DNA from: an uncultured SAR86 cluster bacterium
GTDB taxonomy: Bacteria; Pseudomonadota; Gammaproteobacteria; Magnimaribacterales; D2472
NCBI GenBank assembly: GCA_902557575.1
Contig: CACEAR010000001.1
Coordinates: 186,001-250,000 of the forward strand
Direction of reading: 5' to 3'
Length of the DNA: 64,000 nucleotides
Shown: positions 27,934 to 33,376 of the stretch, piece by piece
Layout: each line of letters starts with the position of its first letter
How positions within the stretch are numbered: the stretch's first letter is position 1
Notes under the pieces: model-generated
The model's input: the letters and a program-made list of their open reading frames with translations, nothing else
Told to the model about the DNA's origin: nothing
Database searches by the model: none
Program-made: the position numbers and the translations under genes

Positions 27934-29223
27934 TTATAAAAAAAGAAACTTTGAAACAAAAACAGCAGTTAAGAACCAAGCCCCAGAGGAAATATTTTTA
28001 ACCTCACCATTAGAGACCTTTAGCACAACGTATGCCAAGAATCCGAGGGCAATCCCATTAGCAATTGAAAAGGTGAGAGGAATCATTACGATAATTACTA
28101 GAGCTGGTAAAAGCTCTGTTGAATCAGACCAATTAAGTTTTTCCATACCGCTCATCATTAGTATGGAAACATAAATTAATGATCCAGCAGTGGCATATGC
28201 TGGAACAATTGCAGCTAATGGTGAAAAGAAAATAGCAACCAAAAATAAAAGCCCAACAACGACAGTTGTTAATCCTGTTCTTCCACCAGCCTCCACTCCA
28301 GCAGAACTCTCAACATAGCTTGTTACTGGAGAACACCCAAAGAAGGTTCCAAAGATGCTTGAACTGCTATCAGCTTTTAGAGCTTTATCAAAGTTCTTTG
28401 CGTTACCATATTCATCGGTTATTTTCGCTCTTGTAGCAACGCCTAGAAGCGTCCCTGCGGTATCAAATAAATTAACAAAAAGGAAAGACATAACAACACT
28501 TAGCATTGCAATATCTAGAGCACCCAAGATATCCATTTTCATTAATGTTGGAGCAATACTAGGAGGCATAGATACTAAGCCACCAAACTGAATTAAATCA
28601 AGGAATATAGAGGATACTGTAACCAGGATTACACCAATCAGAATAGCTCCTGGGATGTTTCTGACCGATAAAGAACAAATTACAAGAAAACCTAAGGCAG
28701 CTAATAATGTTTCTATATTGGTGAAGTCTCCTAGACTAAGGAAGGTAGCATTATTAGAAACAATCAATCCGCCGTTTTTCAAACCAATAAAGCCAATAAA
28801 TAGCCCTACACCAGCACCCATGGCAATACGAAGATTGAGAGGAATACTATCAAGCATCCATCTTCTTAATCTGGTAACACTCATTATAAAAAATAAAACT
28901 CCTGCCAAGAAAACAGCACCAAGAGCGACTTCCCAAGAATATCCCATTTCACCTACAACGGTATAAGTAAAAAAAGCATTAAGACCCATGCCGGGCGCCA
29001 AACTTACCGGCCAATTAGAATATACACCCATAATTATGCAGGCTAAAGATGCTGCAAGACATGTGCCTACAAAACTAGCACCTAAGTCCATACCACTATC
29101 AGCCATCATTTGCGGATTTACAAAGATGATGTATGCCATTGTTACAAATGTAGTAACTCCAGCTAAGACCTCTTTACCGATTGAGGTGTTATTTGATTCA
29201 AGTTTGAATATTTTTTCTAACAT
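27934..29223 (-). CDS. NCS2-family purine permease (AzgA-like)
   Basis: 429 aa from ATG 29223, about 12-14 membrane segments. N-terminal EVLAGVTTFVTMAYIIFVNP and GMGLNAFFTYTVV are signatures of the AzgA/PbuG adenine-guanine-hypoxanthine group. SSSIFGTFFGCSPVTSYVESSAG is the second helix-hairpin with substrate contacts. It ends two nt before the carboxylesterase start. A purine phosphoribosyltransferase-like gene lies 2.7 kb away. Confidence 0.9.
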   Translation of the reverse strand: MLEKIFKLESNNTSIGKEVLAGVTTFVTMAYIIFVNPQMMADSGMDLGASFVGTCLAASLACIIMGVYSNWPVSLAPGMGLNAFFTYTVVGEMGYSWEVALGAVFLAGVLFFIMSVTRLRRWMLDSIPLNLRIAMGAGVGLFIGFIGLKNGGLIVSNNATFLSLGDFTNIETLLAALGFLVICSLSVRNIPGAILIGVILVTVSSIFLDLIQFGGLVSMPPSIAPTLMKMDILGALDIAMLSVVMSFLFVNLFDTAGTLLGVATRAKITDEYGNAKNFDKALKADSSSSIFGTFFGCSPVTSYVESSAGVEAGGRTGLTTVVVGLLFLVAIFFSPLAAIVPAYATAGSLIYVSILMMSGMEKLNWSDSTELLPALVIIVMIPLTFSIANGIALGFLAYVVLKVSNGEVKNISSGAWFLTAVFVSKFLFL

Positions 29224-29309
29224 TTTGATAAATTTTACAGCTTTCAAGACATTAATTTAGTTTTTAATGAAAAAAAAACAAAAAATGTCCCTAAATATTG
29301 ATTTCTATC

Positions 29310-29338
29310 TTGTTAACTTAATTTTTAAAAAGTATTAT
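29310..29338 (+). promoter_or_regulatory. sigma70-like promoter before the riboswitch
   Basis: TTGTTA (29310-29315), a 17-nt spacer, and TATTAT (29333-29338) place the transcript start near 29345, about 40 nt before the first aptamer. The stretch 29224-29309 holds no gene; I see only AT-rich spacer there. Confidence 0.6.
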
Positions 29339-29384
29339 TTTACATTGTGATTTAATTTGCACTTGGGTGTAAGTGAGTTAAAAC

Positions 29385-29430
29385 CGTTCAACTCTTCGGA
29401 GTCGGAAGTAAGCGAAAGCTGAAGGAACGC
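29385..29430 (+). ncRNA. Glutamine riboswitch (glnA motif), aptamer 1
   Basis: 46 nt. P1 pairs CGTTC (29385-29389) with GAACG (29425-29429). P2 is ACTC/GAGT closing a TTCG tetraloop (29391-29402). P3 is AGC/GCT closing a GAAA tetraloop (29411-29420). Between them is the E-loop-like CGGAAGTA and the strand GAAGGAAC. These are the conserved features of the glnA-motif glutamine aptamer (Rfam RF01739), known mainly from cyanobacteria and marine metagenomes. Confidence 0.8.
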
Positions 29431-29436
29431 GCTAAT

Positions 29437-29482
29437 CGTTCATCTCTTAGGAGACGGAAGTAGGTGAAAACCGAAGGAACGC
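29437..29482 (+). ncRNA. Glutamine riboswitch (glnA motif), aptamer 2
   Basis: A second 46-nt copy, 52 nt downstream of the first. P1 is the same (29437-29441 with 29477-29481). P2 is TCTC/GAGA with loop TTAG. P3 is GGT/ACC with a GAAA loop. The stems differ from copy 1 by compensatory changes while the core ACGGAAGTAGG and CCGAAGGAACGC match the family consensus. Tandem arrangement is typical of this class. Confidence 0.85.
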
Positions 29483-29488
29483 CACCGT

Positions 29489-29527
29489 TAAACTGGTCGA
29501 GTTTAGCTTCAATTGTCCTGCAGACAA
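29489..29527 (+). promoter_or_regulatory. Leader hairpins after the riboswitch (possible expression platform)
   Basis: TAAACT/AGTTTA with a 5-nt loop (29489-29505) and TTGTC/GACAA with a 5-nt loop (29513-29527). No T-run follows, so control, if any, would be of translation; the receptor has a GGGGA ribosome site at 29552-29556. The pairing is clear, its role is inferred. Confidence 0.4.
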
Positions 29528-29562
29528 AATTGCAAAATAAAAAAACTTTACGGGGAAATTTT

Positions 29563-31902
29563 ATGAAAAATTATGTAAATATTTTATTTAAAAAAATTGT
29601 TTTAGCTTCATTTGTTGGCTCCTTTGGCCTATCTTTAGTAGCTCAAGAAATTGAGGAAGTTGTAGTTACAGCTGAAAAGCGTTCTGAAAACCTCCAAGAT
29701 ATTTCTCAAGCTGTTACTGCATTAACAGAATCTGACATTGAAGAAAAAAACATAACAAGTTTTGTAGACTTGAGTGCAATTGTTCCAGGCGTGACTGTAG
29801 CAAAAAACGAAGGTTACAAAACTATTATCTCAATTAGAGGAGTCGGTAACGAAACCAACCAGAATGCTATCGCTGCACCTTCGGTAGCCTATCACATGGA
29901 TGGAGTCTTTATAGCTTCACCTTTTGCGCTTGGCACAGACTTTTTAGACGTTGAAAGAATTGAGGTTTTAAGAGGGCCTCAAGGGACACTGTTTGGACAA
30001 AACTCAACTGGTGGTGCTGTAAATGTTATAAGTAAAGCACCTTCTATGGACGGCGGCTCAGGAAGAATGAATGTAACTTTTGGTGACTACAATCTCCGCA
30101 AAGTTAGCACTTCAAATAATTTTGTTGTGAACGATAAGATCGCAACTAGATTCTCTCTATCTTCATCAACTCGTGATGGGTTCACAAAGAATATTTATAC
30201 AGGCCAAGATCTTGATGATGATAATAGTAAAAGTTTCAGAACTGACTGGATGTTCAATTTAAATGACACATCAAGCCTTAGAGTATTTGGACAATACTTT
30301 AAAGTGGATAGAAATGGTGCCGCAATAAGAGGTATCGATGACCAGACTTCAGGAATGAGAAAACTATCTCAAGATACGATTTCTCAGCATGAACTATCAT
30401 CATGGGTTCTAGCAGCTATATATGAATCAGATTTAGGCTTTGCTAATTTAAAAGCAATTGCCAGTGTGCAAGAAGATGATGTATTGGTTGTTAGAGATAA
30501 TGATAGACATAACTATTTAGATCCAGTTCTTTCAATACCTGGCCTAGGCGCAGGCGCAACTTACCAAAGAGCTGAATTCACACCAGAAACTTCACTTGTT
30601 GATACAACAACTTTAGAGATAAACCTAATCTCTAATCAGCCTATTGAAGATAGGTTGGATTGGACAGTGGGGATGTTCTATATGGATCATGAAATTGAAA
30701 ATGTTATCAGAGGTTATCGAGACGATGACTTAGATGGAAGACTAAAATATTTATGTGATGAGTCTTTTGCTGATCCAAGCTACTGTTATGATCATGACTA
30801 TGGCATTCCGGGAAGATTTGATATTTTTGGACCAGCTGCAGAAGTTGACTTCTTCACAGATGCAAACCCAGGAAGAGAATCATTTTCTATTTATGGACAA
30901 ACTACACTTTATGTTAGCGACACATTTAGAATTGTTTCAGGACTTCGATATTCAGAAGATACCTTTACAACCGATGTAACAAACTTTTTAAATGTTGAAA
31001 GCTTTCAAGAAGAAGGCACAACTGATGAGGTCACATCGAGAGTTGTCGGAGAGTTTGATTTGTCTGAGGACACTATGCTTTATGTTGCCTTAGCAAGAGG
31101 CTTCAAACCTGGCGGAAGCAACTTAACATTCGGGTTCACTGAAGAAGAAGATGCAGCTGCTGGTAGACCTATTGCTCCGGCAATGGTGTTCCCAACTTTT
31201 GAGAGTGAAACTGTAGAGTCAGTTGAGCTTGGGCTCAAATCTACTTTTGCAGATGGCAAAGCTAGAGCCAACTTAGCAGCGTTCTCATACACCTATGAGA
31301 ATCTTCAGTTTCAAGCTACCGATCCAGACCCATATAGAGGAGGTGTAGCGAATATACCTGAATCTGAAATGTCCGGTTTAGAGATAGAGTTTACTGGGTT
31401 TGTAACAGACTCACTAAGCATAGATATGAACTTAGCATTCTTGGAGTCGGAAGTGACTTCTGACTATGAGGTACTTGATAATGTAGATGCATACCAATAT
31501 TTCTTTGGCCAAGAAGATTTAAGATATGGACTAAGAGAGAATGTTAGAGGAAATCAGTTAGCTAAAACACCTGAATTCACCGCAGACATTTTAATTAAAC
31601 ATGAAACCAATTTGCCTTCCGGAAATACACTCACAACGACAGCTCAATATGTTAGAAGAGGAGAGTTCCAGCAACGTGTTTCCAATAATCCAATTGTTGA
31701 TGACATAAGAGCTTATACAATTGGCAATTTAACAACTAGTATTGGTTTTAGTGATAGTCTCGCTGTTGATTTCATGGTACTTAATGTAACCGATGAAAGT
31801 GGTGTGAATTCAAGTATGACAGACGTATTTGGTGTTGCAGCAACAGGACTTGAGCTTATACCACCAAGACAAGTTATGACGAGGTTAAGATATAGCTTCT
31901 AG
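29563..31902 (+). CDS. TonB-dependent outer-membrane receptor
   Basis: 779 aa from ATG 29563, which gives a signal peptide ending at VAQ, then EEVVVTAEKR as the TonB-box region. The plug domain (about residues 40-165) contains ISIRGVGNETNQ, VAYHMDGVFI and VERIEVLRGPQGTLFGQNSTGGAVNV. The remaining barrel ends in RLRYSF with a C-terminal aromatic. The family matches TBDRs of SAR86-like bacteria, with unknown ligand. The in-frame GTG at 29464 lies inside the riboswitch and is not the start. Control by a tandem glutamine riboswitch suggests a nitrogen-containing ligand or nitrogen-status control. Confidence 0.92.
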   Translation: MKNYVNILFKKIVLASFVGSFGLSLVAQEIEEVVVTAEKRSENLQDISQAVTALTESDIEEKNITSFVDLSAIVPGVTVAKNEGYKTIISIRGVGNETNQNAIAAPSVAYHMDGVFIASPFALGTDFLDVERIEVLRGPQGTLFGQNSTGGAVNVISKAPSMDGGSGRMNVTFGDYNLRKVSTSNNFVVNDKIATRFSLSSSTRDGFTKNIYTGQDLDDDNSKSFRTDWMFNLNDTSSLRVFGQYFKVDRNGAAIRGIDDQTSGMRKLSQDTISQHELSSWVLAAIYESDLGFANLKAIASVQEDDVLVVRDNDRHNYLDPVLSIPGLGAGATYQRAEFTPETSLVDTTTLEINLISNQPIEDRLDWTVGMFYMDHEIENVIRGYRDDDLDGRLKYLCDESFADPSYCYDHDYGIPGRFDIFGPAAEVDFFTDANPGRESFSIYGQTTLYVSDTFRIVSGLRYSEDTFTTDVTNFLNVESFQEEGTTDEVTSRVVGEFDLSEDTMLYVALARGFKPGGSNLTFGFTEEEDAAAGRPIAPAMVFPTFESETVESVELGLKSTFADGKARANLAAFSYTYENLQFQATDPDPYRGGVANIPESEMSGLEIEFTGFVTDSLSIDMNLAFLESEVTSDYEVLDNVDAYQYFFGQEDLRYGLRENVRGNQLAKTPEFTADILIKHETNLPSGNTLTTTAQYVRRGEFQQRVSNNPIVDDIRAYTIGNLTTSIGFSDSLAVDFMVLNVTDESGVNSSMTDVFGVAATGLELIPPRQVMTRLRYSF

Positions 31903-31961: not shown

Positions 31962-32531
31962 ATGGAAAAGCATTTTATCCAAGCAGACCAACTACTCAAG
32001 GACTCATATAACCTAGCCTGGAAAATTTTTGAGAGCGGTTTTAAACCAAATTATATTATTGGTGTCTGGAGAGGCGGAGCACCAATAGGGATAGCAGTCC
32101 AAGAGTTTTTAGATTTCCTTGGTATACCGTCTGACCATATTGCTATTAGAACTTCATATTATTCAGGCATTGATTCGAGAAGGGATGAGGTCCAAGTATA
32201 TGGGCTTAACTACGTAATAAGAAAACTAGAATCAGAAGATTCTCTTTTGATCGTTGATGATGTCTATGATACAGGCATGTCTATTAACAAAGTAATAACC
32301 GATCTTAAGTCAGCCTGCAAAAAGAATACACCCGAAATAAGAATTGCTACGCCATACTTCAAACCAGGAAAAAACAAAACAGACAGAATCCCCGACTATC
32401 ATATTCATGAGACAGACCAGTGGCTCGTATTCCCGCATGAACTTCAAGGGCTTTCAATGGATGAGATAAAAGCTAACAAGCCAGAGCTGCAGTCCTTAGT
32501 TGAGCATATCGAAGCTTTGAAAACTAAATGA
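31962..32531 (+). CDS. Purine phosphoribosyltransferase-like protein
   Basis: 189 aa with the type I PRTase fold. The PRPP-binding motif is LLIVDDVYDTGMS, preceded by IIGVWRGGAPIG for pyrophosphate binding. DQWLVFPHE near the C-terminus is the base-binding segment of hypoxanthine/xanthine-type enzymes. Salvages a purine base to its nucleotide; base preference not determined. It overlaps the next gene by four nt. Confidence 0.8.
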   Translation: MEKHFIQADQLLKDSYNLAWKIFESGFKPNYIIGVWRGGAPIGIAVQEFLDFLGIPSDHIAIRTSYYSGIDSRRDEVQVYGLNYVIRKLESEDSLLIVDDVYDTGMSINKVITDLKSACKKNTPEIRIATPYFKPGKNKTDRIPDYHIHETDQWLVFPHELQGLSMDEIKANKPELQSLVEHIEALKTK

Positions 32532-33376
32532 CAAACCTAACTGTCGCAGAGGTATACGCAATAGGATTACCTATTATTTATGGAATGATTGCTCTAGAAG
32601 CAATATTTTCATCTCTGACTAACAAGTCTTTTTATAGGCTTGATGATACTTTATGTACAGCCGGCTTACTCATTGGAAATATATTAATAGGATCCGCAGC
32701 TAAAGGACTTTCCTTTGCAGTTCATATTTTTCTTTATCAGTTTAGAGTCATAGATTTGGCTAGTCTTATACCCCTATGGCTTATGTGGGTATTAGCTTTT
32801 GTGCTAATAGACTTAGTTTTTTATATTTATCACAGGCTTTCGCACAGGGTAAGATTTCTTTGGGCTATTCACATGAGTCATCACTCTAGTGAGGAAATGA
32901 ACTTCGCGGTTTCATTAAGACAGGCATGGTTTGCACCATTGTCAAAACTTCCATTCTTTGCAGTGCTCCCATTATTTGGAATGGATCCAACCATTCTTGT
33001 TATCGCAGGAGTTATAAGCACACTTTGGGGCGTAGTTGGACACACACAAATAGTTGATAAGCTTGGCCCGTTAGAAATTATTTTTAATACACCTTCTCAC
33101 CACAGAGTGCATCATGGTGCAAATAAAGAGTATATCGATAAAAACTATGGGAACCTTTTCATTTTTTGGGACAAAATGTTCGGTACATTTGAACCTGAGA
33201 AAGCTCCAGTCAAATATGGATTAGTTAATAATGTTAATACATTCAATCCAGTGAAGATTACCTTTATGGGATGGAGTGCAATTCTTAAAGATATTAGAAA
33301 AGCGAAAACAGTTAAAGAAGCTTTATCGCTGACATTTGGGCCGCCAAATACTAAATTAAGAGGCGGCTCATTTTAA
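32528..33376 (+). CDS. Sterol desaturase / fatty-acid hydroxylase family protein
   Basis: 282-aa membrane protein with the three diiron histidine clusters: HRLSH (about residue 102), HMSHH, and HHRVHHG. About four hydrophobic segments surround them. Members hydroxylate or desaturate lipids, carotenoids or sterol-like compounds. The stop abuts the convergent metalloprotease stop without a gap. Confidence 0.85.
   Translation: MTNLTVAEVYAIGLPIIYGMIALEAIFSSLTNKSFYRLDDTLCTAGLLIGNILIGSAAKGLSFAVHIFLYQFRVIDLASLIPLWLMWVLAFVLIDLVFYIYHRLSHRVRFLWAIHMSHHSSEEMNFAVSLRQAWFAPLSKLPFFAVLPLFGMDPTILVIAGVISTLWGVVGHTQIVDKLGPLEIIFNTPSHHRVHHGANKEYIDKNYGNLFIFWDKMFGTFEPEKAPVKYGLVNNVNTFNPVKITFMGWSAILKDIRKAKTVKEALSLTFGPPNTKLRGGSF

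Follow-up and report, generated by a model that had tools for sequence, protein, structure and literature searches.

The glutamine-I riboswitch (glnA motif, RF01739) is known from cyanobacterial gifB and from marine metagenomes (PMC2864571, PMC6316151). Glutamine riboswitches have been described as common in cyanobacteria and confined to them, their associations with glutamine synthetase, PII and ammonium transporters being found only in environmental sequences, and the cyanobacterial members studied experimentally are ON switches (PMC6316151). Tandem, pseudo-cooperative glutamine riboswitches have also been reported, with 157 doublets and 4 triplets given in PMC9481103. The locus described here lies in the window, a 64,000-nt stretch of DNA analysed as a whole. 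It matches glutamine-I in aptamer sequence and structure, in its tandem arrangement and in its link to nitrogen genes, but its host is a SAR86 bacterium (Gammaproteobacteria), its target is a TonB-dependent receptor (TBDR) and it is predicted to be an OFF rather than an ON switch. Like those tandems, it places two aptamers of the same class in one leader, and some congeners carry RF01739 triplets.

Two further systems provide useful comparisons. In the enteric NtrC/sigma-54 model, glutamine status is sensed via GlnD and P-II, and scavenging genes are switched on at low nitrogen. The same status would be sensed at our locus, but whilst NtrC/sigma-54 is a protein cascade acting at the promoter, the RNA would sense glutamine directly and after transcription has started. 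The cobalamin riboswitch stands before btuB. This pairing, which is also mentioned in PMC9004378, is likewise a riboswitch controlling a TBDR; the btuB receptor carries the very ligand that its riboswitch senses, whereas here the ligand would be a signal of nitrogen status and not the presumed cargo. In the literature searched we found nothing on a glutamine riboswitch associated with a TBDR or present in SAR86.

A sequence-only reading of this DNA had proposed a tandem glutamine riboswitch of the glnA class before a TBDR, and the covariance model strongly supported it. Scanning the whole window with Rfam at gathering thresholds returned just two matches, both to RF01739 (cut-off 35 bits) and both covering the full model (1-53 of 53). 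Aptamer 1 occupies positions 29383-29433 (63.1 bits, E = 1.3e-11) and aptamer 2 positions 29435-29485 (65.5 bits, E = 2.9e-12), both on the + strand. The pair ends 77 nt upstream of the receptor gene, on the same strand. The 52-nt pitch between units agrees with the sequence, and P1 (CGTTC/GAACG), the P2 and P3 hairpins and the CGGAAGTA and GAAGGAAC strands are all present in the alignments, as are the changes between units in P2 (ACTC/GAGT against TCTC/GAGA) and P3 (AGC/GCT against GGT/ACC). In 18 related leaders, 99.1% of the expected pairs of the aptamer and platform hairpin were formed, compared to 33.9-53.8% when the structure was slid along the alignment, and six pairs were changed on both sides. 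The P1-P2-P3 junction with its two strands is thus backed by covariation. The leader belongs to the glutamine-I aptamer class by identity, and from its sequence it is expected to bind L-glutamine. The glutamine-II riboswitch (RF01704) was rejected at 16.5 bits, against a cut-off of 33. Judging by the literature searched, the aptamer class was already known whilst the target gene, the lineage and the apparent regulatory replacement described below appear to be new.

The receptor gene (29563-31902, + strand) begins with an ATG at 29563 and encodes 779 aa, with a signal peptide, a TonB-box-like EEVVVTAEKR and both the plug (PF07715, 64.3 bits) and beta-barrel (PF00593, 103.8 bits) domains; no NCBIfam model reached its cut-off against the protein. 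A gene for a 189-aa purine phosphoribosyltransferase-like protein (PRTase; 31962-32531, + strand; PF00156, 45.1 bits; purine PRTase PDB 1vdm, E = 4.2e-14) starts 59 nt after the receptor, and the two probably form one operon. It is overlapped by 4 nt by a fatty acid hydroxylase gene (32528-33376, + strand; PF04116, 108.7 bits), which comes next in the window genus and is absent from that position in the sister genera read. Divergent from the receptor is a gene for an AzgA-type (NCS2) adenine/guanine permease (27934-29247, - strand; PF00860, 159.7 bits; AZG1, PDB 8irl, E = 1.5e-66). The window genome also encodes an adenine-type PRTase. Since an AzgA-type permease is divergent from the receptor and a purine PRTase lies downstream, a role in purine uptake and salvage is likeliest. 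The cargo, in the sequence-only reading an unspecified and perhaps nitrogen-rich ligand, is narrowed by these adjoining genes to what are probably purines. It is unlikely, if conceivable, that the receptor imports something else, such as a siderophore or vitamin, and that the permease and PRTase are mere neighbours. TBDR specificity is not readable from sequence, the closest PDB structures, receptors for siderophores, colicins and B12, show low similarity, and no purine TBDR was found in the literature searched. Against this, the sister genera read retain the order permease-receptor-PRTase and vary in the genes that lie outside it.

The window genome (1.16 Mb in 15 contigs, 93% complete) is a SAR86 genome, and a search of public genomes for the receptor gave 28 loci, 26 of them from genomes named SAR86 cluster bacterium and the others from a Pseudomonadota bacterium and a Gamma proteobacterium. 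RF01739 was present in all ten window-genus genomes, and the orthologous receptor keeps its tandem in all eight with a readable leader. More broadly, the aptamer was found in 50/107 genomes of the family and, at E <= 0.001, in 95/203 of the order, 81 of which exceed the Rfam cut-off. In a class-wide sample of 369 genomes only 4 carried it, three of these belonging to the SAR86 order, and in a sample of 399 across the phylum the window genome was the sole carrier. In one streamlined non-SAR86 genome of another gammaproteobacterial family (G486, 1.1 Mb), two single RF01739 matches lie 8 kb apart.

The targets in the window genus are a 323-aa glutamine synthetase, an outer-membrane protein (OMP; Gcw_chp, PF09694) followed by the ammonium transporter (Amt), and the TBDR; in the window genome a second tandem precedes glutamine synthetase. 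Glutamine synthetase and the OMP/Amt pair are also among the targets in family f4, and at three loci of genus g12 (family f2) the aptamer precedes the glutamate synthase large subunit. A Gcw_chp OMP was seen 5' of the ammonium transporter in the riboswitch operon at 12 loci, at one of which (L064) P-II lies between the two. At 11 loci, mostly of genus g8, a single aptamer is closely followed by a circularly permuted ATP-grasp type 2 gene (PF14403); to our knowledge the PF14403 operon is not known to be glutamine-regulated.

Next, the receptor leader was compared with those of sister genera, where none of 23 leaders scanned with Rfam carried RF01739 or any other Rfam element and the permease-receptor spacer is shorter than in the window genus. 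What they have instead is a canonical sigma-54 -24/-12 promoter, TTTTGGCAT-N5-TTGCAT. The motif TGGCA-N6-TTGC (GG-N10-GC core) was found at 35/38 sister loci, or about 30 of 32-33 distinct loci after removal of repeats, and only at a spacing of 6, with at most one leader matching at any other spacing from 2 to 12. Upstream of the receptor in the window genus it was found in 0/8. The sigma-54 gene itself follows suit: rpoN, recognised by its DNA-binding domain, was found in 87/97 other genomes of the family and went undetected in all ten, mostly draft, genomes of the window genus. Before the receptor the aptamers are limited to the window genus, in which the promoter has turned over and rpoN is not detected. 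The sequence-only reading had called the gene context unusual; the TBDR target was borne out, and a genus-confined leader at the site of the sister sigma-54 promoter goes beyond what it claimed. At one sister locus (L214) an aptamer pair lies at the far end of the permease and not before the receptor.

No sigma-54 activator was found in the window genome, the single candidate match being ClpA, and P-II gave no match there. P-II loss is not genus-wide because congener G006 keeps a P-II gene adjoining Amt. The distant family f4 genome G190, a single contig, has riboswitches at glutamine synthetase and Amt, and the same search that finds these two genes finds no rpoN, P-II or GAFTGA activator. 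Five genomes of genus g9 (G089, G092, G093, G097 and G098) likewise gave no rpoN match, a possible second and recent loss of sigma-54; one of them, G097, still has the sigma-54 motif in front of its purine receptor despite this. The turnover at the receptor does not amount to many independent replicates since it is essentially one event in the window genus. In that genus control by protein regulators appears to have given way to an RNA switch; the ancestral activator, and that of the sister genera, would be NtrC. After the loss of sigma-54, the riboswitch would put purine uptake under nitrogen control.

The window leader also has candidate promoter elements of its own. The upstream promoter claimed in the sequence-only reading exists as a sigma-70-like site, TTGTTA-17-TATTAT (29310-29338, + strand; 9/12 consensus matches), which by score alone is at chance level (mean of 1.2 such sites per shuffle) and whose hexamers are kept in 8/8 congeners. 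Just 5' of the aptamers, at 29345-29363, ATTGTGATTTAATTTGCAC is kept in 8/8 congeners and looks like a sigma-54 site in which GG has become GT. This conserved stretch (ATTGTGATTTRATTTGCACC) is possibly a decayed sigma-54 promoter.

We then considered how the leader might act. The roughly 40 nt 3' of aptamer 2 match the glutamine synthetase and OMP/Amt leaders of the genus, and also the glutamine synthetase leaders of family f4. The parts of this platform common to the aligned leaders are a hairpin GTTAAA...TTTAAC (in the window GTTAAA...TTTAGC, 29487-29507, + strand) and the element TCCTGCAG (29516-29523, + strand), conserved in the alignment. All hairpin cells were paired (100% in 18 sequences), with changes that are one-sided and G-U only. 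By folding, TCCTGCAG is complementary to the aptamer strand CUGAAGGA and could also pair with the ribosome-binding site, probably GGGG at 29552-29555 (+ strand), where ACGGGGAAA is kept in 8/8 congeners. UCCU is able to pair with AGGA-type ribosome sites.

The likeness between this leader and that of glutamine synthetase in the genus would also be expected if the aptamers were non-functional copies that arrived with a duplicated glutamine synthetase leader. This is highly improbable, as family scores are high and the ligand-binding strands intact in 8 congeners (receptor identity 83-99% where measured), and pairing has been retained via compensatory changes.

A functional switch is the reading we favour. 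It would turn on the AGGA of the invariant strand GAAGGAAC in aptamer 2 (29475-29478, + strand), whose predicted partner without bound glutamine is UCCU at 29516-29519. The pairing spans the platform hairpin in the RNAalifold consensus of 18 leaders and is included in the minimum free energy structure of a longer window leader. It is incompatible with P1 and the ligand pocket. In the unliganded partition function its probability was 0.83-0.93 in five glutamine synthetase/OMP leaders and 0.03-0.24 in TBDR leaders, for which the predicted change in ribosome-site accessibility was small. No terminator-like site (intrinsic terminator) was found in the leader, and control would therefore be at the level of translation.

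At low glutamine the aptamers would open and the 3' aptamer strand GAAGGA would pair with the platform UCCUGC. With UCCU sequestered, the ribosome-binding site would be free and the receptor made, so that in this proposal the cell would import nitrogen-rich purines. At high glutamine both aptamers would close and P1 form; the released UCCU would mask the ribosome-binding site and receptor synthesis would fall. The tandem arrangement should steepen the response to glutamine. The leader would govern translation of the receptor and, via its transcript, the purine phosphoribosyltransferase. A translational OFF switch is proposed because of the analogous glutamine synthetase leader. Its direction is the weakest step, since the cyanobacterial members tested by experiment are ON (PMC6316151), and the unusual GGGG of the window ribosome-binding site also counts against it. 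OFF at high glutamine does fit the needs of the glutamine synthetase and OMP/Amt products that the same platform leads.

Other members of the order carry the aptamer directly before genes for small proteins (46-76 aa), and in many of these leaders the platform is of another kind, CATCT...AGGAGATG. The small proteins include DUF4278 proteins like the cyanobacterial ones, DUF4177-like proteins and a few unnamed families. In cyanobacteria the N-terminus of IF17 falls within DUF4278, and the IF17 gene, gifB, has a glutamine-I riboswitch. Small DUF4278 (YRG-repeat) proteins follow RF01739 at six loci. At seven others a tandem aptamer directly precedes a conserved 52-54-aa protein that ends in KK(D/E)(V/L)FFPYYL and has no Pfam match. 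Four loci of genus g4 have a single aptamer before a 71-74-aa DUF4177-like protein, and three of family f3 a tandem before a 46-aa protein without a Pfam match. The distribution suggests that glutamine may switch small regulators ON and assimilation genes OFF, in two arms.

These leaders bear on the reverse reading of the window leader, in which glutamine would activate the receptor, for example for uptake of carbon-rich compounds when nitrogen is plentiful. The direction-tested members, cyanobacterial gifB and DUF4278 genes, are ON switches (PMC6316151), and the TBDR platform has drifted from that of glutamine synthetase and folds equivocally. We nonetheless regard an ON switch as quite unlikely: the TBDR platform is homologous to the glutamine synthetase and OMP/Amt platforms and does not resemble the CATCT...AGGAGATG type found before small-protein genes in related SAR86, and the purine neighbours make nitrogen scavenging likelier. 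On balance, the window leader is probably a tandem glutamine-I riboswitch for a purine-uptake TBDR, acting as an OFF switch and standing in for a lost sigma-54 promoter.

A 2025 study reported purine usage genes to be absent from SAR86, using operon homologues from its own genome set and a BLASTp cut-off (PMC11698098). We found the AzgA-type permease in 111/203 genomes of the order and the linked PRTase in 78/107 genomes of the family, including 19/19 of the more complete ones, counts that conflict with that statement. The earlier search may have missed the AzgA-type permease family.

For streamlined SAR86 lacking sigma-54, the odds lean somewhat towards a broader view, in which a regulon of glutamine-sensing RNAs (glutamine synthetase, Amt with its OMP, and the purine TBDR) took over and SAR86 takes purines across the outer membrane. 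The riboswitch associations with glutamine synthetase and Amt, according to PMC6316151 apparently limited to environmental sequences, are placed in a named lineage. If the reading is true, the purine receptor captures the handover from sigma-54 control to an RNA sensor at one and the same conserved gene, and would be a naturally occurring example from an ocean bacterium that is abundant worldwide.
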